Below the pieces are notes generated by a model, which saw only the letters and a list, made by a program, of their open reading frames with translations, did no database searches and was not told the DNA's origin. The position numbers and the translations under genes were made by a program. Source: Apostichopus japonicus (taxonomy: Eukaryota; Echinodermata; Holothuroidea; Aspidochirotida; Stichopodidae). From it: 64,000 bases of DNA. The stretch spans positions 23,893,341-23,957,340 of the forward strand of contig NC_092575.1 in assembly GCF_037975245.1 (NCBI RefSeq). The letters run 5' to 3'. The number at the start of each line of letters is the position of its first letter. Position 1 is the stretch's first letter. Positions 4,395 through 49,242 of this stretch are shown piece by piece.

Positions 4395-5440
4395 GCAGCC
4401 CAGAGCACTTTGATCAAACGAACGAGGTACCAATATCTGAGTATTGGAACATTTGTGGAAAAACCCAGTATATCCAAAAGTGGACGTCTGCCGTGGTCGC
4501 TCTGCTGCATGTGGCCCCTGGGGCCGGTTAAAGGGGGCCAAAAAATGCATCTGATCAAACGAACGAGGTACCACTTGAAACCAATGTCAACTTAATGCAT
4601 GAATGCCACATAGTACTGAATGGCCCATGACAGACAAATTTTCTGCTGCAAAGGGCCCGCCAGACGCCCCAAAAGGGCCCCTAAAAATGCATCTGATCAA
4701 ACGAACGAGGTACCACTTGAAACCAATGTCAACTTAATGCATGAATGCCACAAAGTAATGAATGGCCCATGCCAGACAAATTTTCTGCTGCTAAGGGCCC
4801 GCCAGACGCCCCCAAATATGGCCCAAATGCCCATTATCGTAGCATTGACCCAGATTAAATATGCAAGGTACCACTCAAAACCGGTTTGGAATGTTCGGGT
4901 TGACCTTACAGACTATGGAAATAATCATGCCAGACAAATTTTCTGCTACAAAGGGCCCGCCAGACGCCCCAAAAGGGCCCCTTAAAATGAATTTGATCAA
5001 ACGAACGAGGTACCACTTGAAACCAATGTCAACTTAATGCATGAATGCCACAAAGTACTGAATGGCCTATGCCAGACAAATTTTCTGCTGCTAAGGGCCC
5101 ACCAGACGCCCCCAAATATGGCCCAAAATGCCCATTATCGTAGCATTGACCCAGATTAAATATGCAAGATACCACTCAAAACCGGTTTGGATCCACACAA
5201 AAACAATATTAAATGCAAAGGTACTTTCCACAGAGTAAAGAACTGCCAATGCAAGACAAATTTTCTTCTGCATAGGTCCCACCAGATAGAAAGAATAGGT
5301 GGCCCAATGTGGCCCTATATATGGGTCTAAAGAATTGGATATATGTGCCTTGTAACATGACATTTCAAGCTCATGATTATATTGTTTCCAGCATAAATTG
5401 GAGTTACTGTACACAAGACCAGTGTTTTATCTTATTTAGC
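4395..5440 (+). repeat. Left arm of foldback 1, tandem 142-190 bp units
   Basis: CAGACAAATTTTCTGC-type motifs recur at about 4631, 4773, 4930, 5072 and 5255. Two unit types alternate: one with GATCAAACGAACGAGGTACC, one with CCCATTATCGTAGCATTGAC. The frames that cross this arm on both strands are repeat-derived and not credible genes. Confidence 0.85.
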
Positions 5441-5557
5441 TATTCGCTGCTCTAAGCAAAGTAAAGATAACACTTTCACCTAAGCCTCTAAATATTTTGG
5501 GATTTGCTGGCCTGGGCAAAAATTACAGTTCCCCACTTTATAATTCTAACACTCTGA

Positions 5558-5791
5558 GGAAGAGTCTTGCCTGGCTTGGATCCACAGAACTACGGTTGGA
5601 AGAGCAAGAATGGGTGCTACAGCCCTGACTGGTTTGAGGGACCGGCTCTCCCAGATCATCTATTCCAAGAGGGGGAACTGAGCGAAGATTTTCAAAGTAG
5701 CCGACCAGACGTGGCTTCCGAGTTTGATGGCGATGATTCAAGTACTGAACCATCTTGGAGTGATGACTCCGACAATGAAACATTGATTTGA
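5558..5791 (+). pseudogene. Short acidic ORF captured in foldback 1
   Basis: The frame opens after a stop at 5555-5557 and runs to a TGA at 5789-5791, about 77 codons, without an ATG near its beginning. It encodes an aromatic, cysteine-containing part (NYGWKSKNGCYSPDWFEGPA) followed by a strongly acidic, serine-rich tail ending SDDSDNETLI. Composition differs from the surrounding AT-rich repeat DNA and looks like protein-coding sequence. It may be the last exon of a host gene or of a transposon protein. I do not recognise the family with certainty and propose no function. Confidence 0.3.
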
Positions 5792-6347
5792 GCTTCCATT
5801 GTCTTTTTAGAATCAAGTTCATGGGAATACTTAATTTTCATAAACTTAGAGATCTGTCTGAATGGCAAATGCAGTGTCTTTTTACAATGCACACACTCCA
5901 GTGTTTAATCACTGTCAAGAGACATGAATTCTCAGTTCTTATACTTCGAACCTAACATGTGTCATATTCAGAGTAATCACATAATGATCTTTTGTTACTA
6001 TCTTTGCCAATTATGATTTTAGTTCATTTTAAACTAGCAAGATGACTTTCTTCAAAGGTAAAAGATCCCTTCATAGATGAAAACAAAAACCCTCATCTAG
6101 CATTCATATTTCTGAAAAATGGATGCCACATCTATTTGTTGGACTTGTTACAAGCTATTCGAATTGAATTAGTGTAATGATGGAAGTTCTAAAAGACCAA
6201 GATGGAGTAATATACGCCAATTACTCATTTTATATTTTGCATCAGGGAATGGAGTCATACGTGGTGATATCAGTATTTGTTTGTTCAATCTTAGCATTTT
6301 AAGTCCTTTAAAGAGTGTACCTAGCATAAAGGTACATATACATTTCT

Positions 6348-6440
6348 ATGCTTCAATTATGTATCTTTTAAAAACCATATTGGACAGTTTCAACTTGAAA
6401 CTGTCCAATATGGTTTTTAAAAGATACATAATTGAAGCAT
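6348..6440. repeat. Perfect 93-bp palindrome (46-bp arms, 1-nt centre)
   Basis: Left arm 6348-6393 and right arm 6395-6440 are exact reverse complements around a single C at 6394. The arm begins ATGCTTCAATTATGTATC. It lies in the unique interior of foldback 1, not in its arms. Confidence 0.95.
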
Positions 6441-7009
6441 TACTTTCAACCCAAACCTTTATCGTTAAGTACACGTTATAAAGCATTTTCACCATTGTTT
6501 GATAATTGTTTCTTTGTCTGAGCTTAAGAAACAAAACAATCTCTTTTGTTCGACTACATGTATGTCTTAAGATGACACTTAAGCGTTCTTTCTCAAGATT
6601 TTAAACTTTGTAGATTTACAATGCTAACGTAAACACAGTGTTTTAAGATACAAAATGATTTTTGGTTTCTTATTTACAATACATAAACTGATTTTAATCT
6701 GCTCCAGTGTTTCCAGCGAAACAAAGTAACTGTCAAGTTAAACACTGCTCACGATACAAAGTACTGACTGGATAAAAGGAAAAAGAATAGATAAAAGGAA
6801 CAAGAATGGATTTGAGAATGCATTATAACTGTCAGGATCTCCCTCAAAGACTGAGTTCGCGTCATTTTTGTTTTGCTCAATGAAATGTTCAGTAATTGAT
6901 ACACCTACTAGTATACTAATCTCATTATTCCATTGGCCTATGTAGCGGGAAGGCATTTGAATAATTCAGGATGTTCTTGATTGTTATAGATTGGTTTCTT
7001 GTGGCATCT

Positions 7010-7768
7010 TAACTATTTAAACTGCATATTTCTTTTACATGTGGAGGGCCTTTTGCAGAAGAAAATTTGTATTGCATTGGCATTTCTTTACTCTGTGGAA
7101 TGTTACAAATGTCATGTCACAAGGCACATATATTCTGCATCAATATACAATCCATTAGGCCCATATAGGGCCGCATTGGGCAACCTATTCTTTCTATCCG
7201 GTGGGACCTATGCAGAAGAAAATTTGTCTTGCATTGGCAGTTCTTTAATCTGTGGAAAGTACCTTTGCATTTGATATTGGTTTTTTGTGGTACCAACTAT
7301 GATTGATCATAGCCCATTTGGGGGCCATTTTTTTAGTGTGTCTGTTGGCCCCTTTGTAGCAGAAAATTTGTCTGGCATGATTATTTGCATAGTCTGTAAG
7401 ATCAACCCGAACATTCTAAACCGGTTTTGAGTAGTACCTTGCATATTTAATCTTGGTCAATGCTACGATAATGGGCATTTGGGCCATATTTAGGGGCGTC
7501 TGGAGGGCCCTTAGCAGCAGAAAATTTGTCTGTCATGGGCCATTCAGTACTATGTGGCATTCATGCATTAAGTTGACATTTGTTTCAAGTGGTACCTCGT
7601 TCGTTTGATCAGATGCATTTTTTGGCCCCCTTTAACCGGCCCCATGGGCCACATGCAGCAGAGCGACCACGGCAGACGTCCACTTTTGGATATACTGGGT
7701 TTTTCCACAAATGTTCCAATACTCAGATATTGGTACCTCGTTCGTTTGATCAAAGTGCTCTGGGCTGC
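7010..7768 (-). repeat. Right arm of foldback 1 (inverted copy of left arm)
   Basis: Read on the minus strand this reproduces the left arm, including the block with the CCACGGCAGACGTCC-type sequence (7662-7682) that matches 4480-4497 inverted. The right arm is about 0.3 kb shorter than the left, so units have been lost or gained. Confidence 0.85.
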
Positions 7769-13770: not shown

Positions 13771-15656
13771 TAGACCGGGATCCCAGAGGGTTTGGTTAGC
13801 TGGGAAGGTAACCAATTGCCTTGTACATCACAATGTTCACAGTGCATTCCTGTATATGAAACCAGACGACTGGCAAACCGACTGTGGTGGGTGTGGCTGG
13901 GAGAGCAATTTTAAAGTCACCTGATAGCTAACCTAGATCAGTTTTCATGGTAACACATCAAAGTAAGTACAATATGTCAGGTATGGCCCCAAGAGCAACA
14001 AATGGCCATTGCCAGTAATTATTGGTGGTGGGGTACCCCTGCCAGTGATCTATAATTGACCCCTCAAGGCTGACCGAGGTCAGCTCATGAGGTAACCACT
14101 TGAAACCTACTGGAAAATGTTGGTTAGGGCTTCAGATACAACTGATGGGCATTGCCAGTAATTTTTATTGGTGGGGTACCCCTGCCAGTAGACTCCCAAA
14201 ATGCCCATGCCCCAATGACCTAGATGAGCTCATGATGTAACCAGTTGAAAACTACTGGAAAATGGTATCACTCCATATGTAAGGGATGGGAATTTCCAGT
14301 AATTTATATTGGGGGGGGGGGGTACCCCTGCCAGTAGACCCCCAAAATGCCCATTCCCTCATTGACCTAGGTCAGCTCATGAGATAACCAGTTGAAAAAT
14401 TACTGGAAAATGATAGGTATCACTTCATATGTAAGGGATGGGCATTTCCAGTCATTTACATTGGTGGGGTAACCCTGCCAGTAGACCCCCAAAATGCCCA
14501 TCCCCCATTGACCTAGATTAGCTCATGAGGTAACCAGTTGAAAACTACTGTAAAATGATTGGCAGGACTCTATATATATGTAAGGGATGGGCATTTCCAG
14601 TAATTTATATTAGTGGGGTACCCCTGCCAGTAGACCCCCAAAATGCCCCCCCCCCCTCATTGATCTAGGTCAGCTCATGATTTAACCAGTTGAAAACTAC
14701 TGGAAAATTATTAACAGGATTCTATATGTAAGGGATGGGCGGACTCTGGCAGTGGTGGCCCACCAATATAAAATACTGGAAATGCCCATCCTTACATATG
14801 AAGTGATACCTATCATTTTCCTGTAGGTTTCAACTGGTCAAATCATGAGCTCACCTAGGTCAATGAGGGGATGGGCATATTGGGGGTCTACTGGCAGGGG
14901 TACCCCACCAATAAAAATTACTGGCAATGCCCATCCCTTGTATCTGAAGTCCTAACCAACATTTTCCAGTAGGTTTCAAGTGGTTACCTCATGAGCTGAC
15001 CTAGGTCAGCCGTGAGGGGTCAATTATAGATCACTGGCAGGGGTACCCCACCACCAATAATTACTGGCAATGGCCATTTGTTGCTCTTGGGGCCATACCT
15101 GACACATTGTTCTTACTTTGATGTGGTTACCATGAAAGCTGCTCTAGGTTAGCTATTAGGTGACTTTAAAATTGCTCTCCCAGCCACATCCACCACAGTC
15201 GGTTTGCCAGTCGTCAGGTTTCATATACAGGAATGCATTGTGAACATTGTGATGTACCAGGCAATTGGTTACCTTCCCAGCTAACCAAACCCTCTGGACT
15301 CCCGCTCTACAGATCAGTGAAAATTTGACCAAACTTATGAAGCTTGCACGTAAATGATAAACTAGACTGTTTTTTTTTAAAACAGGTTATGAAAAGTATC
15401 TTAAATATCATTAAACAGTTGGGTACAATAGTTAAACTCACTCTTCCATCTTTTTTCTCTATGGTACTTGTTCCTTTGCTTTTTGGACTCTTGGATAAAC
15501 TCTTTTGTTCTGCGAAGGGTACCAATATATCATCTTAAAACATGTCTTTAAGCCATATATAACACAGTTCTCCTCTTCTGTTGTTGCCTCCACACTGGTG
15601 TCGTACATCACAGGAAAGCTCACCCTTGACTTAGATATTTGGCTTTTCAATTCCTG
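13438..15656 (-). pseudogene. Candidate two-exon coding remnant, unknown family
   Basis: On the minus strand, a polypyrimidine-AG acceptor (CTTTTTTCCAG) precedes a first segment 15656 to 15442. It encodes QELKSQISKSRVSFPVMYDT, an acidic TTEEEN patch and, after a frame change near 15530, a lysine/serine-rich end finishing EKKDGR at a GTGAGT donor. A second segment, 13518 to 13438, follows TTCTGTTCACAG and continues in phase 0 as VNNGADFGFLKTSGRPFVVK to a TGA. Foldback 2 sits in the intervening intron. The splice signals are good but the segments are short, the family is unrecognised and one frameshift is needed, so this could be chance. Confidence 0.25.
13771..15309. mobile_element. Foldback transposon 2 (1.5 kb)
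   Basis: The outer 160 bp at each end are inverted copies (left includes CAGAGGGTTTGGTTAGCTGG at 13791; right is the complement near 15280-15300). The arms continue as about 140-bp units with GGTACCCCTGCCAGTAGACC and TTGACCTAGGTCAGCTCATG, direct in 14000-14720 and inverted in 14760-15060. The switch in orientation lies near 14735-14755. No ORF belongs to it and I found no clear target duplication. Confidence 0.8.
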
Positions 15657-16942
15657 CTGGAAAAAAGAAACAGCAGAGTATTCATCATTTGAAAAAAAAA
15701 ATAAATAAAGTTGTCACCACAAAGTTATGTGAGATTTGCTTCCACTATAGTCTCAAAAAACAATCCCAAAGTTTGAAGCAGACTGTATAAAGCTGAAAAT
15801 TTGAACGAGAGTGTCATCACCATTGCAACCAGAATCAAATGCCCAGAATACAGAGATAATAAAACATGGGCTAAATCTTTGTTTGTTTTTATGATCTTTA
15901 AAAATATAAAATTTTAGAAACAGAAATGCACTGAGCCAACTTATTTATAGGCCTAATCGTTTTTAGTTGTTATTTTGCTTGCTCACATAACAAGCCTGTT
16001 TAGACCTAGGCTAGAGGAGAATCAGTACTTTGTTACACTAAGTTTGTCTACGGTCGTTTTGATTTAGTCTTACTAGTAGTACTAAAGTATATAATGGACC
16101 GGCGAAGACTAGAGAATACCCAGAGTTTTAGCAACTGCGTTAAACTGTATCATCTGATCTATTATTTACGCCAATGAGTTTCATTCAATCTAGGATCAAA
16201 AAGAGAAAACTAATTAATCTTAACCTTTAAACTTTGCTACTAAACAGATATGCTTGAATTACAAATAAATGTCAAAAAAACATCATAATCTAAGAATCGA
16301 TGCATATACATACACATAAACAGAATAATTTGAATTCGCGCAAGTGAACCCTGCACTACATTGGACAGTAAAAAAACGTGCAATTAGACCAAACTAAACA
16401 TACTAAATTTTCCGTTACTTCTACATAAAATATCAATACAAATACAACAACTTACTCTTTTGGCAGTATACTAAAAGCACATGTTATAATAACTTCAGAC
16501 TATCAAGCTTTCCTGAAAAAAAACGGTTAATACTTCTTACAGTAAGCAAGTCGACCGTGAAGGAATGTCGCAATTGCTTCCTGGGCGTGACCGGAAATTA
16601 AATACTAAAAAATGATAAATGAAAAGGTTAAATAGAACTGAAGCGTGCATCCTGACTGCTCGCAACATATAATACCGTTGACTAGCCAACATAATGTGTT
16701 CAGCCGACTGTGACTGTACGTTTGAAGGTCTAGCCTTGCTTATTCAATATCACAAAGCCTACCCATTTAGATTCACATGGGAAATTACAGGAAATCTTTA
16801 CCAAATGAGTGTAGACTGCAAATAAACTATTGAGCCTTATAGTTCCAGCATTTGTTTGGGAATAAATTAGAAGATTATGTGCCACTGTTCAATCTAGCCC
16901 AATACACACATAACACATTGTTAATTGGTGTTTAGAATGCAC
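15310..16942. other. Interval between foldback 2 and foldback 3
   Basis: Besides the weak minus-strand exon candidate at 15442-15656, this AT-rich stretch shows no recognised gene, RNA or repeat. Confidence 0.4.
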
Positions 16943-17129
16943 ACTTTAGTGACCGGTGTGAAGTTAGATACTTATTCCCCGTTCCTCGTTCGATATTCGC
17001 GAATGAGTAACTGCTACCTATTCAGTTACGTATTCGACAATGGTATCGACGTAACACCTCTGGCAAGGCAAAAGCTTTCTTACAAGATGATCAACATTTG
17101 GTCGTGGTAAGAGGTTCATCTATTGGTCA

Positions 17130-18990
17130 TATACTCTAATGAATATTTAGAAGGATACCATAATGCATCTTTTCCGGTCCGAATAGTTCTTGACCAACTA
17201 AAATGACCACTACTTCATCAGTTTCTAAATTAATGTAACGGGACCTGAAAAAAATCACTATAGGCCCTTATCAAGACTAGCACGCCTTGGACCACCTAAC
17301 CAATGGGTCATAGGAATTCTCAACACATTGTAGAAGGATACCATAATGCGTCTTGACCGGTCCAAAGCGTGCTTGACCAATTAAAATGACCACTAAATCA
17401 ACAATTTTTTAAATAAATGTAACAGGAACTGAAATAAAAAACATTTGGGCCCTAATCAAAACCAGCACGCCTTGGACCACCCAACCAATGGTTAACATGA
17501 ACTCTTAAGTCATTGTAGAAGGGTACCATAATGCGTCTTGCCCGGTCCAAAGCGTGCTTGACCAATTTAAATGACCATTAAATCATTACTTTTTTAATGA
17601 CTGAAAAGGGACCACGAAAAAGCTTTGGGCCCTAATCCATGCAGCACGCCTTGGATCACCAAACCGATGGTTAACATGAACTCTAAGGACATTGTAGAAG
17701 GGTACCATAATGCGTCTTGCCCGGTCCAAAGCGTGCTTGACCAATTAAAATGACCACTAAATAATTACTTCTTTATTGAGTGTAACGGGACCACAAAAAA
17801 GCTTTGGGCCCTAATCCATGCAGCACGCCTTGGACCACCAAACCGATGGCTAACATGAACTCTAGGGACATTGTAGAAGGGTACCATAATGCGTCTTGCC
17901 CGGTCCAAAGCGTGCTTGACCAATTAAAATGACCACTAAATAATTACTTCTTTATTGAGTGTAACGGGACCACAAAAAAGCTTTGGGCCCTAATCCATGC
18001 AGCACGCCTTGGACCACCAAACCGATGGCTAACATGAACTCTAGGGACATTGTAGAAGGGTACCATAATGCGTCTTGCCCGGTCCAAAGCGTGCTTGACC
18101 AATTTAAATGACCACTAAATCATTACTACATCATCGAGTGTAACGGGACCACGAAAAAGCTTTGGGCCCTCATCCATGCAACACGCCTTGGACCACCTAA
18201 CCAATCGGTAACATGTACTCTAAAGACATTGTAGAAGAGTACCATAATGCGTCTTGCCCGGTCCAAAGCGTGCTTGACCAATTTAAATGACCATTAAATC
18301 ATTACTTCTTTATTGATTGTAACGGGACCACAAAAAAAGCTTTGGGCCTTAATCAATGCAGCACGCTTTGAACCACCAAACCGATGGTTAACATGAACTC
18401 TAAGGACATTGTAGAAGGGTACCATAATGCGTCTTGCCCGGTCCAAAGCGTGCTTGACCAATTAAAATGACCACTAAATAATTACTTCTTTATTGAGTGT
18501 AACGGGACCAATAAAAAGCTTTGGGCCCCAATCCATGCAGCACGACTTGGACCACCAAACCGATGGTTAACATGAACTCTAGGGACATTGTAGAAGGGTA
18601 CCATAATGCGTCTTGCCCGGTCCAAAGCGTGCTTGACCAATTTAAATGACCACTAAATCATTACTACATCATCGAGTGTAACGGGACCACGAAAAAGCTT
18701 TGGGCCCTCATCCATGCAACACGCCTTGGACCACCAAACCGATGGTTAACATGAACTCTAAGGACATTGTAGAAGGGTACCATGATGCGTCTTGCCCGGT
18801 CCAAAGAGTGCTTGACCAATTTAAATGACCACTAAATCATTACTTCGTTAATGAATGTTAATGGACCTGCAAATATGTTTAGGCCCTTGTGAAGACCAGC
18901 ACGCCTCGGACCACTCAACCAATTGGTCTTATGAATTCTAAGGACATTGTTGAAGAGTTCCATAATGCGTCTTACCCGGTCCAAAGAGTA
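17130..18990 (+). repeat. Left arm array, 179-bp unit, about 11 copies
   Basis: The marker ACCATAATGCGTCTTGCCCG recurs with spacing of 179-180 bp from about 17524 to 18778, with more diverged copies at 17157, 17340 and 18958. Outer and inner edge units are the most diverged and central ones nearly identical, the pattern expected from unequal exchange. Confidence 0.95.
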
Positions 18991-18999
18991 TTTGACCAA

Positions 19000-19902
19000 T
19001 ACAAACGACTAATGCACAATCATTATCCAGTAGATTCATCAATATCTTCTTTTTTGAATTTCAACTCTACGTCTGTACCAGTGTGGTGATACAAAACAAA
19101 AGCAACACCTTTGGCTCGCAAGTTTAATGCTTATTGGTGCTTTACAATCATCAGCATACAAAGTTTCCTTCCCATTCCGGAGAAACACACGCGCACTCTT
19201 CTTCTTTTTTTTTGGGGGGGGGGGCCTTAGCGCAACTACATTTTCAGAATGAAGTGATATCTGTAGACTGGCAACGAACTGAAAACGTTTTTGTTTTAAT
19301 TATTCGTTTATAGAACTTAATTTTATTTCTTTTATTCATTTCACCCGTCAACCCTTCACATATTTACAGATTTAAAGAACAAAGAAGTGTTCTTGCCTCT
19401 CTTCTTGAAAGTGGTTTTGAACGCTTTAACCCCCTTCGTAGACTCTGAAAGATTCCACTGCTACATTCTAGAGCTGACCATGGAGCTATAAACAGACAAT
19501 CAGTCATCTCGGGTCAAGCGGAGATAAACTGACTTTAATAGTTTATTTAGCAAAATAGTCTTCAAGTGAAATAGGTCTACCCAGACATATATTTTATGCC
19601 GAAATCCCTTTCTGATTTATTTATGATCTCCATTAGCCATAGTTGGTAATGAACCATCCAAGTTACCCTATAGTGCCATTCTATGCATTTTGATTTTATC
19701 GTGTTCCCATGCATGTGCTTGTTCTTTCTCTTAGCGATTTTTCAATAGAAAGTTTCTCTTGGAGTGTAGAAGGCAGATCCACCATAAGAAGTCTCACTGG
19801 GTTTATTCCAACTAAACATAGACCAGAGTTAGTGTGATTTTTTAGTTGGTTTCCTTTCATTCAGTTCTACCTAATTATTAATTATAACGTCCATAATCTA
19901 GC
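19000..19902. other. Central unique part of foldback 3, left of the hAT insertion
   Basis: AT-rich DNA with a G tract at about 19215-19225; no credible coding sequence or transposon end. Confidence 0.4.
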
Positions 19903-21211
19903 CAGGGACGTCGCTAGAGGGGGGTGTGGGGTGTCTCATCCCCCCCCCCTCCAATCTTGGTAAAACTGACGAAAGTTGGATAATTTTTGTGCGACAGTCG
20001 GAATTTCCGACTGTCGCACTCGAATTTTTCCGACTGGCGCACTCGAATTTTCAAATATTCTTGTAGTGACCTAAAATTTTCGGTCAAAATTGACCTTGAA
20101 TCAGTCATATTTGCTACGATTTCCTTGTCACAATGAGAAATTGTATCTCGCGATCTTTATACTCCACCATACAAAATTTCGTATGATTTTGAATACTCTA
20201 AAAAAAATGCCTAATAGAACTTCTGCACAACATATACTATTAAAACGCTCAATGCTAATCTACGGAAGCTTAAAAATGCCATCAACATAAGAAAACCTTT
20301 GCCCCATAAGGTGAAATTTTTCTGTAAATTGTTTAGATAACAAGATAAAATGTTATCAAAAAAACAGAAAAATGTTGCATTGCTTACTTGCTTTAAATGA
20401 GTAATTGAACAATTTTGTGAAAAATGTTTAATTGAAAACTAATCAAATCTCGTCAATTAGTCATTTTTTGCTGCAAAATGTTCATTTGTTTACTTCATTC
20501 CATAAGAACAATTGAAAAACTTTTCTCAGAAATGTTTAATTGACAACTTATCTTATCTCGTCAATTGGACATTTTTGGCAAAATGTTCAATTGTTCACTT
20601 CATTCCAATTGAGCAATTGAAAAATTTTCTGCAAAATGTTTAATTGACAACTTATCGTATAACGTCAACTCAACATTTTTCTACAAAATGTTTAATTGTT
20701 CACATCATTCCAAATGCTCAGTTGGAATGAAGTGAACAATGTTTTTTTTTATTCATGTGAGTGATAAATAGCCCCACCCCCACCCCCAAGAAAATAATAT
20801 TAAGCCCGCTAGAAAAAAGCACTGTATTTTTGGGTAATTCACTATGTCGTCGAATATAATTTTCGAAAAAAAGTTTCCCCTTTGTTACATTAACATAGCT
20901 TTTTTTAGTCAGTAGTCTATGTAGCTTATCAAGCAGATAACTTGTACTCAGTTGCTTACTCGCTTAACCAGAGTGATTGATAAGTTTGTAAAGTGAGGGC
21001 CAGTGGTACAAATGTACCGAGAAAAGTTTGGAACAAAAGTGCAGTCGCGAAAGATAGGGTGTCTGACTGACACTGACCGTATCGTTGACGAGTATAGTGC
21101 GGGGGGGGGGGGGGGTACAAGGCAGCAGTCGGAATTTTCTGGCTCCAAAACCCATCCAGTTGGAATTTCAGCCACTAAACCCCCAATCATCATGCATTAG
21201 CTACGTCCCTG
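19903..21211. mobile_element. hAT-like element nested in foldback 3
   Basis: The ends are CAGGGACGTCGCTAG at 19903 and GCTACGTCCCTG finishing at 21211. The 8-bp flanks AATCTAGC (19895-19902) and TATCTAGC (21212-21219) match at 7 of 8 positions. G and C tracts just inside the ends and the CAGGG start fit the hAT group that recurs further right in the window. A short GTGCGACAGTCGGAA / TTCCGACTGTCGCAC palindrome lies at 19989-20018. No transposase is present. Confidence 0.75.
20398..20711 (+). repeat. Three tandem units of about 105 bp inside the nested hAT
   Basis: Units end in ACTTCATTCC-type sequence at 20501, 20606 and 20711 and share AATGTTTAATTGACAACTTA. An inverted piece of the unit end (GGAATGAAGTGAACAAT) follows at 20724-20740, making a local hairpin. 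Confidence 0.8.
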
Positions 21212-21219
21212 TATCTAGC

Positions 21220-22490
21220 TATACAAATTTTACACAATACACAAAACACATTCAATCCATTAGCAGAAGTGCTAGATTTTAGGTCAATTTCGCGTTTGTT
21301 AATTTAAGTCAAAAATACACTTTCTAATCACTTACAATTGTATTTAATGTATTAATTCTTCGGTAAATATCAATTAGGCTATATGCTGAGTCAATTATGG
21401 AAGTATAGAAGTCAAGAGAAATATTACATGCTTAATATCCACCCCCCACCCCTCCCCATTTATTCTCTGATTGGATTGAAATGTACTTGCAGAAGAAAAA
21501 TTTTCATGCCAAATTACTTTAATCTGGTAGAATTGATACACTTTTACCAATCTATGTGCAAAGATGTTCCATACACTATTACTCAATACTTCATAAGATA
21601 AATTTGAAGGAGCGGAATAAAGGACCATGCGTTCTGATTGTAATTGAATGATTCATTCAGGATGTTTCCTAGAAGTTTTCTCTCGTAAAAGAGCGCTTGA
21701 ACATTAGGCTCGAACTAATTGATACCGATGTACGAGCTGACTGCCTACCGTCATTTAACGTCCATGGAATACCTTTAAAAGGCTGAGAGTTCATATTTAT
21801 CATAGCGTGATTGCTCCCTTGCGTAGAACCATTAAAATTGATAGATAACTGAAATAATCTGCAGCATGTTGACAGTTTAACTGCTTTTTTGCATTTGTAT
21901 TCCCAAATGAATGAAATATCGGCATATCTTTCCTTCTACGAATGTCTCTGACCCGCGTTAGGAGAGTTAAAGTGATATTGTTCAATGTTTGAACGTTACT
22001 GCATGTACCATTAATTCATGGTACTTGGTAGGCCTATATAGGGGATGGTTTATTTCTTTGATTGTTTCTCCGGCTGTAAGCTTCATAAGCTTTATTGGGC
22101 TATCATGACAGTGCAAGCCTGCTACAAGCCTGCTGCAGCCTTGCTACGGCCTTGCTACAACCATAGAAAGATGCTGTCGCTTTATGCCATCCTGTTCAAA
22201 TATCTGCCACATTGCAATTTTTCCCTTTTGATTAGGCTGAAATTTCGTAAGTGATTTGAGTAAGTTAAAGTGTTCTATGCTAACATATCGATGAATTCGG
22301 AAGTCATTTAGAGGCTTTTTTAAATTGTAAAAACTTTCCGACAGAATTTGGCCATGTATATAGACATTCTGCCATTAATTGGAATGCACTTAAAACGAGT
22401 TCTCTCTTTTTCATTCCTTGAGGGTCCAAAGTGCAATTTGTAATGCTACCGGTTGACACTAAACGCACGATACATAACATATGAGATGGA
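21220..22490. other. Central unique part of foldback 3, right of the hAT insertion
   Basis: Short frames only (for example 21383-21601 and 22045-22254) with no recognisable domain. Nothing else seen. Confidence 0.4.
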
Positions 22491-22499
22491 CACTCATTT

Positions 22500-25470
22500 A
22501 AGAAGTGATGATGTAGTGGTCATTTAAATTGGTCAAGCACACTTTGGACCTGGCAAGACGTATTATGGTACTCTTCTACACTGTCTTAAAAAATCATATG
22601 ACCCATCGGTTAGGTGGTCCAAGGCGTTCTGGTCTGGATTAGGGCCCAAAGCTTTTTCGTGGTCCCTTTTCACTCAATAAAGAAGCAATGATTTAGTGGT
22701 CATTTAAATTGGTCAAGCACGCTTTGGACCGGGCAAGACGCATTATGGTACCCTTCTACAATGTCCTTAGAGTTCATGTTAACCATCGGTTTGGTGGTCC
22801 AAAGCGTGCTGCATGGATTAGGGCCCAAAGCTTTTTCGTGGTCCGGTTACACTCGATGATGAAGTAATGATTTAATGGTCAGTTTAATTGGTCAAGCACG
22901 CTTTGGACCGGGCAAGACGCATTATGGTACTCTTCTACAATGTCCTTAGAGTTCATGTTAACCATCGGTTTGGTGGTCCAAAGCGTGCTGCATGGATTAG
23001 GGCCCAAAGCTTTTTCGTGGTCCCGTTACACTCGATGATGAAGTAATGATTTAATGGTCAGTTTAATTGGTCAAGCACGCTTTGGACCGGGCAAGACGCA
23101 TTATGGTACTCTTCTACAATGTCCTTAGAGTTCATGTTAACCATCGGTTTGGTGGTCCAAAGCGTGCTGCATGGATTAGGGCCCAAAGCTTTTTCGTGGT
23201 CCGGTTACACTCGATGATGAAGTAATGATTTAATGGTCAGTTTAATTGGTCAAGCACGCTTTGGACCGGGCAAGACGCATTATGGTACTCTTCTACAATG
23301 TCCTTAGAGTTCATGTTAACCATCGGTTTGGTGGTCCAAAGCGTGCTGCATGGATTAGGGCCCAAAGCTTTTTCGTGGTCCCGTTACACTCGATGATGAA
23401 GTAATGATTTAATGGTCAGTTTAATTGGTCAAGCACGCTTTGGACCGGGCAAGACGCATTATGGTACTCTTCTACAATGTCCTTAGAGTTCATGTTAACC
23501 ATCGGTTTGGTGGTCCAAAGCGTGCTGCATGGATTAGGGCCCAAAGCTTTTTCGTGGTCCCGTTACACTCGATGATGAAGTAATGATTTAATGGTCAGTT
23601 TAATTGGTCAAGCACGCTTTGGACCGGGCAAGACGCATTATGGTACCCTTCTACAATGTCCCTAGAGTTCATGTTAACCATCGGTTTGGTGGTCCAAGGC
23701 GTGCTGCATGGATTAGGGCCCAAAGCTTTTTTGTGGTCCCGTTACACTCAATAAAGAAGTAATTATTTAGTGGTCATTTTAATTGGTCAAGCACGCTTTG
23801 GACCGGGCAAGACGCATTATGGTACCCTTCTACAATGTCCTTAGAGTTCATGTTAACCATCGGTTTGGTGGTCCAAGGCGTGCTGCATGGATTAGGGCCC
23901 AAAGCTTTTTCGTGGTCCCGTTACACTCGATGATGAAGTAATGATTTAATGGTCAGTTTAATTGGTCAAGCACGCTTTGGACCGGGCAAGACGCATTATG
24001 GTACTCTTCTACAATGTCCTTAGAGTTCATGTTAACCATCGGTTTGGTGGTCCAAAGCGTGCTGCATGGATTAGGGCCCAAAGCTTTTTCGTGGTCCCGT
24101 TACACTCGATGATGAAGTAATGTTTTCATGGTCAGTTTAATTGCTCAAGCACGCTTTGGACCGGGCAATACGCATTATGGTACTCTTCTACAATGTCCTT
24201 AGAGTTCATGTTAACCATCGGTTTGGTGGTCCAAAGCGTGCTGCATGGATTAGGGCCCAAAGCTTTTTCGTAGTCCCGTTACACTCGATTATGAAGTAAT
24301 GATTTAATGGTCATTTAAATTGGTCAAGCACGCTTTGGACCGGGCAAGACGCATTATGGTACTCTTCTACAATGTCCTTAGAGTTCATGTTAACCATCGG
24401 TTTGGTGGTCCAAGGCGTGCTGCATGGATTAGGGCCCAAAGCTTTTTCGTGGTCCGGTTACACTCGATGATGAAGTAATGATTTAATGGTCAGTTTAATT
24501 GGTCAAGCACGCTTTGGACCGGGCAAGACGCATTATGGTACTCTTCTACAATGTCCTTAGAGTTCATGTTAACCATCGGTTTGGTGGTCCAAAGCGTGCT
24601 GCATGGATTAGGGCCCAAAGCTTTTTCATGGTCCAATTACACTCATTAAAGAAGTAATGATTTAGTGGTCATTTAAATTGGTCAAGCACGCTTTGGACCG
24701 GGCAATACGCATTATGGTACTCTTCTACAATGTCCTTAGAGTACATGATACCCATTGGTTAGGTGGTCCAAGGCGTGCTGCTTGGATTAGGGCCCAAAGC
24801 TTTTTCGTGGTCCCGTTTCACTCATTAAAGAAGTAATGATTTAATGGTCATTTCAATTGGTCAAGCACTCTTTGGACCGGGCAAGACGCATTATGGTACT
24901 CTTCTACAATGTCCTTAGAGTTAATGTTACCCATTGGTTAGGTGGTCCAAGGCGTGCTGCATGGATTAGGGCCCAAAGCTTTTTCGTGGTCCCGTTACAC
25001 TCATTGAAGAAGTAATGATTTAATGGTCATTTAAATTGGTCAAGCACTCTCTGGACCGGGCAAGACGCATTATGTTACCCTTCTACAAGGTCCTCAGACT
25101 TCCCATGACCCATTGGTTGGGCGGTCCAAGGCGTGCTGGATTTGATTAGGGCCCAAATGTTTTTATTTCAGTTCCCGTTACATTTATTTAAAAAAAATGT
25201 TGATTTAATGGTCATTTTAATTGGTCAAGCACTCTTTGGACCGGGCAAGACGCATTATGGTATCCTTCTACAATGTGTTAAGAATTAATATGACCCATTG
25301 GTAAGGTGGTCCAAGGCGTGCTAGTCTTGATTAGGGCCTAAAGTATTTTTTTTACATTAATTTAAGAGCTGATGAAGTACTGGTCATTTTAGTTGGTCAA
25401 AAACTATTTGGACCGGGCAAGATGCATTATGGTACCCTTCTACATAGTTATTAGAGTTCATATGACCCAT
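22500..25470 (-). repeat. Right arm array, inverted 179-bp unit, about 17 copies
   Basis: The marker ATTATGGTAC recurs about every 179 bp from near 22563 to near 25430. Units between about 22.8 and 24.3 kb are almost identical, whereas those beyond 24.6 kb and the innermost one are diverged. Each unit holds both AGCACGCTTTGGACC and its complement, for instance at 22895-22909 and 22975-22989. Confidence 0.95.
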
Positions 25471-25656
25471 GGGCCATAGATAAACCTCTTTCCACGACCA
25501 TATGTTGAACATCTTGTAAGAAAGCTTTTGTCTTGCCAGAGGTGTTACGTCGATACCATTGTTGAATACGTAACTGAATAGGTAGCAGTTACTCATTCGC
25601 GAATGTCGAACGAGGAACGGGGAATAAGTATCTAACTTCACACCGGTACTTTAGTG

Positions 25657-25996
25657 TTGAGAATGCACTGCAGTACCCAGTAGAAGCCTATAGGCTACTC
25701 ACTGTCATTGCACTTGTGTATTGCGAAACGCCAACGTGACAACGGTAGCGTTACACTAACCATAATACAGTACTAGTGCCAGTGGCCTAACAATTAACTT
25801 TAATTTTACCTTCTAGTTAAAGGAATAACAGGTAGGCCGATGATGCAGTTAATACCTCCATTCTTCTAAAGACCTTCTTGGGTGATTTACGGTTGAAAGT
25901 TGCTTAGAGTGATCGTATGAAACTATGCCAAGCCCAGCAAGCTGCCGTTGCCTCTCGGTTTCCAAATTGAAGTGAATCGAATTGGGTTAAAATACA
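25657..25996. other. Flank between foldback 3 and right subterminal cluster
   Basis: No recognised gene or repeat. Confidence 0.4.
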
Positions 25997-26235
25997 TTAG
26001 TCCGTCGACACCGACTAAGCTACGATTATGGCGTAAATCGGGTGTCCGTATCGTTCTTAGTCCATGGGTTAAAATACCTTAGTCCGTCGCCACCGACTAA
26101 GCTGCGATTATATTTTCCTTAGTCAGTGTAAACTAACTAAGAAGCAGCGATGAAACGAAGATTTTTGCTAGTCCGGGTGCATTGACTAACGTTAAAGACT
26201 AATTTAACGTTAGTCCGTGGCAATATTGACTAGTT
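25997..26235. repeat. Right subterminal cluster, about 12 CGACTAA/TTAGTCCG motifs
   Basis: TTAGTCCGTCG, ACCGACTAAGC and variants occur about 12 times in both orientations. Part is a direct duplication (around 25990-26030 and 26065-26110). The motif is the same as at 12779-13145, which is the main reason for pairing the two clusters. Confidence 0.8.
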
Positions 26236-26248
26236 TATTTTTTCAGTG

Positions 26249-38912: not shown

Positions 38913-39592
38913 ACTATATGGGGATGTGATGTTGACCATAAGGATGACACTATATGTGGAGGTGAAGTTGACTATAAGGATGACACTATATGGGGATGTG
39001 ATGTTGACTATAAAGATGTCACTATATGGGGATGTGAAGTCGACTATAAGGATGTCACTATATGTGGAGGTGAAGTTGACTATAAGGATGACACTATATG
39101 GGGATGTGATGTTGACTATAAGGATGTCACAATATGGGGATGTGATGTTGACTATAAGGATGTCACTATATGTGGATGTGAAGTTGACTATAAGGATGAC
39201 ACTATCTGTGGAGGTGAAGTTGACTATAAGGATGTCACTATATGTGGATGTGAAGTTGACTATAAGGATGACACTATATGTGGAGGTGAAGTTGACTATA
39301 AGGATAACACTATATGTGGAGGTGAAGTTGACTATAAGGATGACACTATATGTGGAGGTGAAGTTGACTATAAGGATGACACTATATGTGGAGGTGAAGT
39401 TGACTATAAAGATGTTACTATATGGGGATGTGATGTTGACTATAAGGATGTCACTATATTTGGATGTGAAGTTGACTATAAGGATGTCACTATATGGGGA
39501 TGTGATGTTGACTATAAGGATGTCCCGATATGGGGAATTGGGGATGTTATGTTGACTATAAGGATGTCCCGATATGGGGATGTTATGTTGAC
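38913..39592 (+). repeat. 36-bp minisatellite, about 19 copies
   Basis: The unit is AGTTGACTATAAGGATGACA plus CTATATGTGGAGGTGA. Two variants alternate (GGGGATGTGATG and GTGGAGGTGAAG). Because 36 is a multiple of three and the unit lacks an in-frame stop, a 209-codon frame from a GTG at 38926 stays open. It would encode a 12-residue repeat such as LTIRMTLYVEVK. There is no ATG-led start outside the repeat, signal peptide or splice context, so I regard it as non-coding satellite. Confidence 0.92.
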
Positions 39593-42265: not shown

Positions 42266-43438
42266 CTACGATTGACCGTCTAGAAGTCTATGTTGACAAT
42301 GCGGCGGCAAAGATTTGCTTCTATCGATCAGTCTTTTCATCGCGATCGGAGACGCCAAGGGCGGCGTTACCGTCGTCGCCGTCATCGTGGTATTGTGCCC
42401 GAGGCCATTTCTATTTTGTACCGAATGTGACGGAACTTGGAATGATTCCTCCTCGAAGGTATGGCTACTCGCCGTACATCCGACATCTTGTAATATATTG
42501 CAGAGTGTAAAACGAAGAATGAGCTTCCTAAACGTTCTCCTGTATTCACGATTACTAAATGCGTAGATGAATGGATTCATCGCTGAATTAGCGTGTGATA
42601 AGGTAATTGCCGGTAAGAATAAATAATAAGGTGGCACTACCTTCACGATGACGCTTATTGCATTCAAGAGGTGTAGTGGCAGCCAACACAGCGCAAAGAT
42701 TAATATCACAATAGCTAAGATCTTGGCTGCTCTGGCCTCTTTGAACGTTAGTTCGGCTAACCGTTTGCTAGTGTCATTCTCACTACCGACGACCAGTTGT
42801 GATATCGCTTTCACTTGTTTCTGAACCTCTTGGAATATTTGATGGTAGACAAAACTAATGATGATTAAAGGTGGTAAAACTGTACCAAAAAAGTTAAAAT
42901 ACACCATATAGTTCATATCCATGACTTTCATAAATTCACATTGTACGACATCAGTTGGATCTTTATGCCAACCGAATAAGGGCACCATACCAATGAAGAA
43001 GGCTAGCACCCAGGTTGAAAGGATGATTAATAGCGCCCTCCTTCCTGTCGCTACACGTCGGTAACGTAAAGGTTTCGTCACTGCGAAGTAACGGTCCAGA
43101 GCGATCGCTACGAGGCAGAAAATAGAACTCTGTGTCAGAAAGACCACAAACGAATTCATGAATAAACACAAGTGGAATCGGTTGTGCGGTTGTTTAGCAT
43201 TAACTAGTAACGCAAATGGTATTGCAAAGAGTCCCACCATCATGTCTGCTATTGCTAAAGACACGATGAAATAGTTCGTTACATTCCGAAGTCTTCGGTT
43301 ATAATGGACGGCCCAACAAACTAAAAGATTCCCAAGAACCGCTGCGACAGCGATTGGTATTTCTAAAGCCAGACCCAAAATGACATAAACGTCGTTTCCA
43401 CCTTCGTCAGAAGCGTTGTCGTCGCTTTCATTTCCCAT
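42266..43438 (-). CDS. Adenosine receptor-like class A GPCR (A2-like)
   Basis: A 390-residue seven-helix receptor of the plasma membrane, expected to bind extracellular adenosine and signal through G proteins. Landmarks: N-glycosylation sequons at N3 and N8; helix 1 GN (36-37); helix 2 LAIAD (61-65); C91, likely disulphide-bonded to C167 of loop 2; LTQSS in helix 3 (101-105); DRY (115-117); W143 in helix 4; MNYMVYFNFF entering helix 5 (175-184); CWLPLHLLN with W252, H256 and N259 in helix 6; LSHAN and NPFIY (288-292) in helix 7; cysteines 313 and 321 as possible palmitoylation sites. F169 and N259 match the ligand-contacting Phe and Asn of human receptors. KEARAAK before helix 6 resembles A2 subtypes, whereas loop 2 CEF resembles A1. 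The glutamate after that Phe is Met170 here. The coding region is intronless, while human ADORA genes have one intron in it. The ATG has a strong context (AACATGG). It is the only intact gene in the window. Confidence 0.96.
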   Translation of the reverse strand: MGNESDDNASDEGGNDVYVILGLALEIPIAVAAVLGNLLVCWAVHYNRRLRNVTNYFIVSLAIADMMVGLFAIPFALLVNAKQPHNRFHLCLFMNSFVVFLTQSSIFCLVAIALDRYFAVTKPLRYRRVATGRRALLIILSTWVLAFFIGMVPLFGWHKDPTDVVQCEFMKVMDMNYMVYFNFFGTVLPPLIIISFVYHQIFQEVQKQVKAISQLVVGSENDTSKRLAELTFKEARAAKILAIVILIFALCWLPLHLLNAISVIVKVVPPYYLFLPAITLSHANSAMNPFIYAFSNREYRRTFRKLILRFTLCNILQDVGCTASSHTFEEESFQVPSHSVQNRNGLGHNTTMTATTVTPPLASPIAMKRLIDRSKSLPPHCQHRLLDGQS

Positions 43439-45336
43439 GTTTTAGGAAGAAACGACTGGTGTAATAAAACTAATTACAAAATTGTCTCCTTCACAAGTAG
43501 ATGAACGATATTTTTTTCTCAAAACAGCATAAAGGAAGCGGCGAGAAATGTGATAAAAATCTGTCATCCAGATGCTTTGACCAAGTTATTACCGCATCAA
43601 ATATATAACACTGCAGATGATAATAATATCAAGAGCGATACTGGTCGGAGCTCTGACATCTCTCTCCATTGCTTATTGTAGTTAAGAGTTCGTCTATATA
43701 ATAATAATAATGATAATAATTATAAGAAGAAGACTCTTGCGTTCTTATTTCTTGTCTATCTCGACGGATTGAGAATAAAACCATCTTTCCCACCAGTAAA
43801 TATATGACATCATTATTTGAAGGAAAATCTGACTAGATAGTTTTATACCTTAATGATTGATATGGCGATAAATAGCTCCTTTTCATAGTACAAAGACTGT
43901 CCTGGCGACAGATGGCAAGCGTACGATTCATCCAATCAACGTCGCTAATCGTTTGACCGTGTTAAACTGCATATAGATGTATCTCTCTATAATAGTACAT
44001 GTAATCCCAATACAGGAAATTCAAATGTCCTCGTATTCTTATTGAATTTGTGGTTTTTTTAATTTTTAATGGCTTTGCCAGTGATAAAATATATGCTGTA
44101 ATATATCTTTTTAACGACTTTAAGTTTCTTCTTAGAGTTGTTTTTCCAGAGTATCATCCACGATATTTTAGCCAAAATTGTGGGTTTTACTGAATAATGT
44201 CAAATATCAGTCAAATAATGCGGGTACTGCGTGATCTAAAGTTAAACACGATATCAGGATGCAGTAATAAAGGTCTGCTGTAGAAATCACGAAGCTAATG
44301 TAAAAGCCCTCCAAGAATGATACACATTTTCTCCGTTGTATTTCCGTGTTTTTGCCTTCCTTTGAGTGCGTGTGTGTGTGAAATACAGAAAGTCGTATGT
44401 TACATCATAGCCTATAGGCTAACAGTCATACAAATGGTAATAGCACTCACATTGAAATCAGTGACATAAACGTGTTTATCGGTTAAGCCTCGCTGGAAAT
44501 TCTTTCCCCTGTAGTACAAAGATCCACAATGAAATATGTCATTCCTAAAGTTGACATATTCGATATTTTTATGTGATTAAAATCCGTAGATGAGTACACT
44601 CAGAAAAAAAAAATCATTAAAAAATGATTATTTTCAAGTCCAAATAGACGAAGAAGCCTCTAGCGATCCATATAAGCCTTCATTCATATTTCTATTGCTC
44701 GATCCTTGCTTTCTGTTTTGTTTTCCATTTCTTTGTGTTATTTCGGTTTTCATTTATTCACGAAATCGATACGAGAGTCCTATTCATCCATACGAGATGT
44801 AACTTTCCTTTCAAAAAATATATTATTATCCCTTCTTCTTCTTCTTCTTCTTTTTCTCCAATTTTAATCCAAATTTTTTGGGGGGATATTTTCGCTTAAA
44901 TTCCGTATCGAAAATTAATTTTTAGAAGAACACAACGGCACGATGAAAGCGAAAAACGTTATAAATTTCCTTCGGATATCACATTTAAAATGTCCTTTTC
45001 CCCCTTTATCTTGTCAACGCTCTGATGCCGTAGAGGGAGAGAGATGAGAGGCAGAGAAAGATGAAGATGGAGGGGAGGTGGATAGAGATGAAGAGATCAC
45101 AGTCATCATCTCAATCAACTGCCAAAAACTCAAGTGATCCTGTCTGTCTGCTTGTGAGTCTCTTATATGAACTATGATAACGCTATCACGAAAAAGAGTT
45201 GAAAGTATTACGCCTGCATGATGGTCACGTGGTTAGTTTCCTCCAGGAGGTGATGCGAGTAATAACAGAGCAGCGCCAGTCGAAGAGATCAGAGAATATC
45301 ATATGTAGAGGGAGAGACAGGAGACACGCCTGAAAT
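43439..45336. other. Region upstream of the receptor gene
   Basis: It would contain the 5' untranslated region and promoter, but I could not pick out a TATA box or start site with confidence. An ATA-rich stretch lies at 43700-43730 and a purine-rich tract at 45030-45100. No other gene is seen. Confidence 0.4.
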
Positions 45337-48458: not shown

Positions 48459-49098
48459 GAAGGGGTGGGGGAAGGGGGAGAGGTCAGGTGTTCGTGTAGG
48501 CTATAAGCAGGCCTGAAGAGAGAAGAATGGGTGGGGGAGGGGGTCAGGTGTTCGTGTAGGCTATAAGCAGGCCTGTCGGAGGAGAATGGGTGGGGGAGGG
48601 GGTCAGGTGTTCGTGTAGGCTATAAGCAGGCCTGTTGGAGGAGAATGGTGGGGGAGGGGCCAGGTGTTCGTGTAGGCTATAAGCAGGCCTGTCGGAGGAG
48701 AATGGGTGGGGGAGGGGGTCAGGTGTTCGTGTAGGCTATAAGCAGGCTTGACGAGAGGGGAAGGGGTGGGGATGGGGCCAGGTGTTCGTGTAGGCTGTAA
48801 GCAGGCCTGTCGGAGGAGAATGGTGGGGGAGGGGGTCAGGCGTTCGTGTAAGCTATAAGCAGGCCTGTCGGAGGAGAATGGTGGGGGAGGGGGTCAGGCG
48901 TTCGTGTAAGCTATAAGCAGGCCTCTCGGAGGAGAATGGGTGGGGGAGGGGGTCAGGCGTTCGTGTAAGCTATAAGCAGGCCTTACGAGAGGAAATGGGT
49001 GGGGGAGGGGGTCAGGCGTTCGTGTAAGCTATAAGCAGGCCTGACGAGAGGAGAATGGGTGGGAATTGGGTGTTTGTGTAGGCTATAAGCAGGCTTGA
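48459..49098 (+). repeat. 59-60 bp G-rich minisatellite, about 11 copies
   Basis: The unit contains GGTCAGGTGTTCGTGTAGGC and TATAAGCAGGCCTGTCGGAG, followed by a GGGTGGGGGAGGG run. Copies start near 48483, 48543, 48602 and so on. The last one or two are diverged. Confidence 0.93.
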
Positions 49099-49242
49099 CG
49101 ACGAGGGTTTCTCATGCCGGGTGATAAAGGCTCCGGGACCCGGGATAATGTAAGGGACCATGGGAATGTAGAGTAAAGAATACTGCATTCTCAACAAAAC
49201 AAGAGAGATTTAATCAGGGATACCAGTTGACATATTTCCCCT

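Follow-up and report, generated by a model that had tools for sequence, protein, structure and literature searches.

The locus examined here raises the question of whether two satellite-like arrays that face each other across several kilobases form a mobile element and, if so, what has moved it. The window, meaning the whole stretch of DNA that was analysed, comprises 64,000 nt of Apostichopus japonicus (GCF_037975245.1, NC_092575.1:23,893,341-23,957,340, forward strand). A first-pass annotation had proposed a foldback element at 16952..25647, and our analysis recovers exactly these bounds, together with the inverted termini, the opposed 179-bp arrays and a perfect 9-bp duplication. The features, in window coordinates, are as follows:

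15058..16951, no strand: host repeat, left part, matched to where the contig C2 locus read ends; may extend further left
16561..16569, minus strand: empty target, one copy of GACATTCCT; the host-repeat copy on contig C2 carries its own foldback element here
16943..16951, plus strand: target duplication, left copy, ACTTTAGTG, 9 bp; single copy in the contig C2 empty site
16952..17132, plus strand: left terminal inverted repeat, 181 bp, starts ACCGGTGTGAAGTTAG
17133..19009, plus strand: left arm, 179-bp units arranged head to tail (about 10.4 copies, TRF)
19010..22489, no strand: centre, about 3.5 kb, without recognisable coding sequence
19903..21211, plus strand: hAT-like insert of 1,309 bp nested in the centre, non-autonomous, with ends CAGGGACGTCGCTAG / TAGCTACGTCCCTG
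22490..25466, minus strand: right arm, 179-bp units facing the other way (about 16.5 copies, TRF)
25467..25647, minus strand: right terminal inverted repeat, 181 bp
25648..25656, plus strand: target duplication, right copy, ACTTTAGTG, 9 bp, exact
25648..26248, no strand: host repeat, right part

Architecture of the window copy

The element is 8,696 bp long and is bounded on the outside by ACCGGTGTGAAGTTAG and its reverse complement. Its left and right 181-bp termini agree at 169/181 positions, element positions 1-2049 match the inverted right end with 90.5% identity (2,059 aligned bases), and TRF calls a 179-bp period over 17133-19000 (10.4 copies) and 22502-25461 (16.5 copies), such that the hallmark of a foldback, long terminal inverted repeats made of tandem repeats, is present. 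When a six-frame translation of 19001-22500 (X at stops) was compared with Pfam we obtained a single match at E 0.7 and nothing better; this search revealed no recognisable gene in the centre of the window copy, which the first-pass annotation had described as approximately 3.5 kb without transposase. The centre is kept in other copies of the family, in both orientations, and pieces of the window copy's centre are 96-100% identical to those of L015, L016 and L017, in support of recent movement. Nested in the window centre is the 1,309-bp element, which we take to be hAT-like from its ends and its 8-bp duplication (AATCTAGC/TATCTAGC, one mismatch). The order of blocks within the centre differs between groups of copies (A-B-C vs A-C-B), and we dropped the idea of an unusual rearrangement by block shuffling as both orders are explained if one hAT-like element inserted twice, at two different places. 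In the first group the AATCTAGC duplication is exact in L012 and differs at one position in L011, L015 and the window copy, and the insertion has lost its left end in L017, while in the second group the CATGCGGC duplication is exact in L009, L010, L014, L023 and L027, and is damaged in L018.

Insertion, dispersal and target duplications

We found that the window copy is embedded in a different high-copy repeat, and that this repeat also occurs intact and empty, the best 40 copies by score (one being the query's own locus) running uninterrupted across the target. Moreover, the window and contig C2 form reciprocal empty sites, each locus being filled where the other is empty. The first-pass annotation had named empty sites without the 9-bp target as an outcome that would count against it, and the empty sites hold the target once. 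With reciprocal and intact empty sites that each carry a single target, insertion with target duplication is therefore established at the level of sequence, as are the empty sites themselves, the dispersal of the family and the variation in arm length described below.

The exact 17-bp terminus occurs 205 times genome-wide and the 30-bp terminus 235 times at up to 2 mismatches, compared with 0 for a reversed-pattern control, so that its recurrence is not due to chance. Neighbouring exact termini less than 20 kb apart are convergent (+-) in 57 cases, with 5 ++, 2 divergent (-+) and 1 --, and the 57 paired copies span 0.65-17.3 kb with a median of 8.3 kb; ten of them exceed 10.6 kb (e.g. C15:5692748-5709563, C16:5221871-5239161 and C19:9377440-9393256). 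From the 205 termini, and from 2,152 cores of the 179-bp unit in the genome (approximately 130 element equivalents), we estimate a family of roughly 100-150 copies. In the 51 copies whose flanks were read, an exact duplication of 9 bp is found in 33 and of 10 bp in 3, 15 have no exact duplication, and none has an exact duplication of 7 or 8 bp. The 9-bp duplications comprise 31 distinct 9-mers with no consensus. An exact duplication is common to 21/30 correctly paired flanks, whereas in the mispaired control an agreement of at least 5 bases was seen in 2/870, both of them 9-base matches that can reflect a swap between two copies with identical flanks. The genome search with the terminus that had been proposed at the outset thus returned the copies with 9-bp duplications that it was meant to find, and a non-autonomous family of large foldbacks at many loci, with unrelated flanks and single-target empty sites, is borne out.

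The mover and the rival readings

These observations suggest that the family is a recently mobile, non-autonomous DNA transposon of the foldback type on which a Mutator-class transposase most likely acts in trans, a reading that we place at a probability of roughly 0.8. This enzyme would recognise ends that start ACCGGTGTGAAG, cut the target with a stagger of 9 bp (in some cases 10 bp) and insert the element there, after which gap repair would produce the target duplication. The satellite arms are part of the element and move along with it. Each arm changes in length independently of the other, by a single 179-bp unit or a few at a time, through what would be unequal exchange or slippage, and the units probably offer the transposase repeated internal (putative) binding sites. 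The class of the transposase, the binding role of the units and the mode of array change are what we infer here, the class because the duplications are 9-10 bp, where a 9-bp mode with some 10-bp cases falls within the 8-11 bp described for MULEs (PMC6446971). The MULE- or FB-type mover initially suggested stays at the level of inference, as no scored MULE, Merlin or Mutator-domain match falls inside the 57 paired copies.

For that search we scored 38 PF10551 (MULE), 11 PF12762 (Merlin) and 111 PF20700 (Mutator-domain) matches, 160 in total, with 51 of 165 PF20700 candidates left unscored. By comparison of match coordinates with the bounds of the 57 copies defined by exact termini, a scope that leaves copies with diverged ends outside, 0/57 paired copies contain a scored MULE, Merlin or Mutator-domain match. 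For four of the 160 matches an exact terminus is found within 13 kb, with the match on its inward side, against an expected 0.12 + 0.04 + 0.36 = 0.52 that assumes independent placement of matches and termini and ignores transposon clustering. One of the four lies outside its paired element: this C16 MULE sits 11.7 kb inward and was set aside, since a partner terminus closes the element at 5.6 kb and the MULE lies 6.2 kb beyond it. The other three adjoin unpaired termini and belong to three different families, namely a broken, ZSWIM1/3-like MULE fragment on C11 (L059, PF10551; 12.2 kb inward), whose one close relative (91%, C17) has 0/205 exact termini within 20 kb, a Merlin match on C8 (C8:17939952; 6.0 kb inward; an 80-aa frame with a stop) and a single PF20700 case on C3 (12.4 kb inward). 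A hidden partner may be among these three, and since they disagree on family we claim none of them as the autonomous partner.

The same mobile element could instead depend on a mover outside the Mutator class (e.g. Merlin, a P/Galileo-like enzyme or a domesticated host transposase), which we consider unlikely. Merlin elements make 8-9 bp duplications and encode an IS1595-type transposase; our 9-bp duplications fit, exact 8-bp duplications occur in 0/51 copies, and PF12762 matches fall inside 0/57 paired copies. The P superfamily makes 8-bp duplications, and neither these nor the 7 bp of Galileo were found as exact duplications in the 51 copies. Such a mover would agree with the 0/57 paired copies holding a Mutator-class match, with the 1/11 Merlin matches that lies near an unpaired terminus, and with the foldback-like long repetitive ends described for Galileo, a P-type element (PMC3573991). 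However, the C8 neighbour is a lone case with a short, interrupted frame, Galileo is described as bounded by 7 bp (PMC3573991), and a 9-bp mode with some 10 bp matches the MULE range (PMC6446971).

Far less probable are two further readings. That long inverted arrays were misassembled is conceivable in that such arrays are difficult to assemble, but many separate copies with differing array lengths and exact duplications on both sides make this very improbable for the family, although array lengths of single copies may still be wrong. Least credible of all is a satellite array that was inverted and later shuffled by recombination. The arms are satellite-like, 13/100 unit cores among those listed are more than 12 kb from any exact terminus, and recombination also acts on the arms, since L011/L012 are two tandem copies whose 9-bp spacer matches the left flank in reverse complement; yet the fixed termini bear 31 different 9-bp duplications, the window and C2 are reciprocally empty, and 82/100 of the listed cores are on the inward side of an exact terminus and oriented as expected.

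Related foldbacks and the 179-bp unit

Long, internally repetitive inverted ends are also found in Drosophila FB/NOF and sea urchin TU, and FB duplications are likewise 9 bp, but the ends of FB and TU consist of short repeats. It is well supported that we have here a new family of a known type, foldback transposons, with a design closest by description to Tetris of Drosophila virilis. Tetris is described as a non-autonomous foldback with an outer domain, opposed arms of variable, approximately 220-bp tandem units, a non-coding middle, 8-10 bp target duplications and no transposase found (PMC4079207), all of which resembles our family with its duplications of about 9 bp. The same description gives Tetris a maximum TIR length of 1,735 bp, three structurally complete copies and units that also occur in long free arrays (PMC4079207), whereas here up to 19 full units make up one arm (approximately 3.4 kb, in L015), 36 copies have exact duplications, and the listed units lie mostly inward of a terminus (82/100). 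A unit of 179 bp, first proposed to be unusual, is not so when set beside the approximately 220 bp of Tetris (PMC4079207) and 210 bp of Galileo (PMC3573991), but the size of the element, together with its unit number, does exceed what is described for either. Tm1 of Meloidogyne (Mutator/Foldback) is similar in its composite, internally repetitive TIRs, its lack of a target consensus and its 8-10 bp, mostly 9-bp, duplications around 45/53 complete elements, and differs in its 13-15 bp tandem units, element lengths of 1,080 and 2,593 bp and a known transposase-coding group (PMC3169594). Galileo shares long TIRs with unit numbers that vary independently at each end, some of its tandem repeats carrying extra transposase binding sites (PMC3573991, PMC3688188), but has 7-bp bounding sequences, a P-type transposase and TIRs to approximately 1.26 kb. 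The MULE-related Rehavkus, compared by description, is alike in its 9-bp duplications and minisatellite, and differs in a transposase that carries a PHD finger and in its TIRs of 26-400 bp (PMC6446971).

Full units per left/right arm in 13 copies number 10/16, 9/8, 3/14, 6/10, 13/12, 1/0, 5/6, 19/10, 10/10, 6/4, 0/4, 13/7 and 15/4. In the close pair of the window and L015 one arm has 10 units in each and the other 16 vs 19, and in the window right arm units 12 and 14 are identical, as are 13 and 15, indicating a two-unit duplication. We ruled out that the unit is a multiplied terminus because the likeness of the 181-bp terminus to it does not exceed that of shuffles (110 and 178 of 500 equally good). 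Somewhat speculatively, and against the odds as we see them, the unit could be a putative transposase-docking module. Each unit holds an inverted 15-mer pair, GGTCCAAAGCGTGCT / AGCACGCCTTGGACC, with 14/15 positions paired in the consensus, and copies with dozens of such sites would have the advantage over shorter copies in competing for a trans-supplied enzyme whose gene has lost these ends. If true, the family would parasitise another transposon, or else a domesticated host transposase, with selection for ever longer satellite arms. The family adds large foldbacks of an animal genome (median as above) and offers a clean example of a transposon with satellite-like ends that was recently mobile. 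Its dozens of copies, its reciprocal empty sites and its close copies only a few units apart make two old questions testable within one genome, namely how foldback arms grow or shrink and whether an element with longer arrays is better at transposing.

Structure and insertion site of the window copy

The foldback element of the window is bounded by outer inverted repeats of 181 bp (169/181 identical), directly inside which lie the arrays of its 179-bp unit in opposed orientation, and both ends are flanked by the exact 9-mer ACTTTAGTG. Its size is ordinary within the family, and none of the six frames of its 3.5-kb centre has a Pfam match stronger than E 0.7.

Features of the window (window positions unless a contig is named)
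C15:23893341-23957340, the window, in a genome of 671.6 Mb and 35 contigs
16952-25647, foldback element: terminal inverted repeats, opposed unit arrays and centre
38913-39536, minisatellite with a 36-bp unit, open in frames on both strands
42266-43441, (-) strand, open 391-aa rhodopsin-type GPCR frame (PF00001, E 8.5e-59)
48474-49100, minisatellite with a 59-bp unit

The first-pass annotation had proposed a mobile element with a 9-bp target, and the empty-site comparison bears this out. When the window flanks were joined with one duplication removed, the resulting 160-bp query matched at 160/160 positions beside another family copy on contig C2 (L035:1030-1189), where the high-copy host repeat is unbroken and the target is present once. 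The C2 copy is likewise inserted in this host repeat; its joined flanks match window 16481-16640 at 96.9%, and its target GACATTCCT is present once in the window, at 16561-16569. Moreover, a 481-bp host-repeat piece spanning the window target gave 376 genomic candidates, and the best 40 of these, the query's own locus included, matched over the full length at 99-100%. This shows that many host-repeat copies are empty; as the 40 are the best-scoring candidates, it gives no estimate of the empty fraction. Together with the reciprocal C2 site, these copies show that the window copy inserted into a repeat that is both young and high in copy number.

Termini and target-site duplications across the family

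The 30-bp terminus, with up to two mismatches, occurs 235 times in the genome, and the reversed control pattern 0 times. Exact 17-bp termini, gathered by extending the 17-bp terminus with each flanking base in turn (31, 60, 43 and 71), number 205. Among neighbours less than 20 kb apart, 57 are convergent (+-), with 5 in ++, 2 in -+ and 1 in -- orientation, and the convergent pairs measure 653-17,291 bp (median 8,339).

Comparison of the flanks of 51 copies, a sample biased to well-kept ends in that 48/51 belong to the 57 exact pairs, gave 33 exact 9-bp duplications, 3 exact 10-bp duplications and 15 copies without an exact one; 9/57 exact pairs, e.g. C20:12287075-12294360, fall outside this sample. 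The first flank set (n=13 copies) held 7, 2 and 4 of these classes, respectively; the second, of 10 pairs with 3 already in the first, added seven new ones (4, 1 and 2); and the third, of 30 pairs, gave 21 exact 9-bp duplications and 9 pairs with none, 2 of which match over 10 bp with one mismatch. Locus L034 holds a 1,257-bp copy with an exact 9-bp duplication. The 33 exact 9-mers comprise 31 different sequences, because two couples of copies have common flanks (L035/36 with L037/38; C16:34544 with C16:34892), and they show no consensus. With mispaired flanks as control, agreement over at least 5 bases arose in 2/870 trials, both of 9 bases, a result that the C16 couple, whose flanks are identical, can explain. 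In at least two duplication-less copies (C8:16329 and C8:39675) the left flank resembles the end of another terminus.

The C16 couple (C16:34544086-34552424 and C16:34892138-34900463; 8,339 vs 8,326 bp) shares identical 12-bp flanks at a distance of 348 kb and is probably a segmental duplication. At L011/L012 (C16:5142569-5157830) two members stand head to tail around a 9-bp spacer that repeats the left flank in reverse-complemented form, a pattern that a flip by recombination between inverted arms would leave. Three direct-orientation termini spaced 4-5 kb (C3:7124859, 7128852 and 7133562, +) may represent half elements repeated in tandem. Seven loci (L019, L020, L022, L024, L025, L026 and L028) have a common outer flank ending TTAGCTTAAACTTTG, with variants in L020 and L024, and their terminus has no partner within the 10 kb read; it is perhaps a captured foldback end multiplied along with another repeat.

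Arms, centre and the 179-bp unit

Arms carry from 0 to 19 full units and are unequal in 12/13 copies. In 215 units of 13 copies, mean divergence is 12.7% in the same arm, 14.1% across arms of one element and 14.5% between elements. The outermost units differ by 6.5% between different elements and 7.8% within the same element, so that outer units are conserved according to position, with turnover among the inner ones. The window copy and its close relative L015 each have 10 units in one arm, and 16 and 19, respectively, in the other; the right arm of the window copy contains a two-unit duplication (12=14, 13=15). Genome-wide, the unit core (up to 3 mismatches) occurs 2,152 times (1,074 forward, 1,078 reverse; control 0), or about 130 element equivalents as scaled by the 13 counted copies. 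Among the matches listed (the first 100, all perfect and from contigs C1-C15), 82 have an exact terminus on their outer side and the expected orientation, another 5 have one nearby in a different arrangement, and the nearest to the other 13 is more than 12 kb away. The unit thus belongs mainly to the element, with some pieces detached; long free arrays may occur beyond the listed matches.

Centres fall into two groups, with pieces 91-100% (window, L011, L012, L015, L016, L017) or 77-89% (L009, L010, L014, L018, L023, L027) identical to the window's. One and the same hAT-like element is found in both groups, but at a different position and with a different 8-bp duplication in each (L016 outside the comparison). 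Two complete copies, L013 and L021, have none of the window-type centre.

The unit consensus contains an inverted pair of a 15-mer (14/15 positions, 84 bp apart), a reverse-complement match equalled or beaten in 2/500 shuffled units. Its two copies are conserved at 0.941 and 0.958 vs a unit mean of 0.894, although the most conserved segments of the unit start at positions 9-24 and overlap the first copy only in part. No resemblance was seen between terminus and unit. In Galileo, the DNA-binding domain of the transposase binds to tandem repeats located inside the long ends (PMC3688188). A transposase-binding role of the 179-bp unit would be plausible.

Candidate transposases and related elements

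Genome profile matches numbered 38 for PF10551 (MULE), 11 for PF12762 (Merlin) and at least 111 for PF20700 (Mutator domain; 51/165 candidates left unscored), and of these 160 none falls between the ends of a paired copy (0/57). Inward of exact termini, four matches were located at distances below 13 kb, which exceeds the ~0.5 expected under independent placement, an expectation that takes no account of transposon clustering. The C16 match is outside its paired element, and the other three adjoin unpaired termini and belong to three families (C11 MULE, C8 Merlin, C3 PF20700), among which there may be a partner. The mover is most likely a Mutator-class enzyme acting in trans, judging by duplication length, because 9-bp duplications with a minority of 10 bp fit the Mutator range (8-11 bp; PMC6446971) and Tetris was assigned to Mutator on the same kind of duplication (PMC4079207). 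The architecture of the family is that of a foldback transposon, nearest to Tetris; here the arms are larger and the copies more numerous. Among the open-literature papers listed, none described such an element from an echinoderm or sea cucumber.

Among the profile matches, open 691-aa PF20700 frames in tandem pairs ~4.4 kb apart (C4:20769497/20773873, C6:9244990/9249370) are candidate intact genes of another family. PF20700 fragments whose matches start at profile position 64 are spaced ~170-230 kb apart close to contig ends (C19:31.25-32.38 Mb, C20:0.25-1.22 Mb). The interval 11.1-25.6 Mb of C17 holds 19/49 MULE and Merlin matches, with none of either elsewhere on C17, and is a transposon-rich region.

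The window contains two further inverted-repeat structures. In the one at 13771-15309 the arms are 93% alike and contain ~150-bp tandem units in opposed orientation; no target duplication was found, and its right end falls within the portion of the host repeat that was matched. That at 4395-7768 has ~142-bp tandem units near its ends, no duplication on search, and outer 280 bp 98% alike. The presence of three such structures in 64 kb suggests a design that is widespread in the genome.
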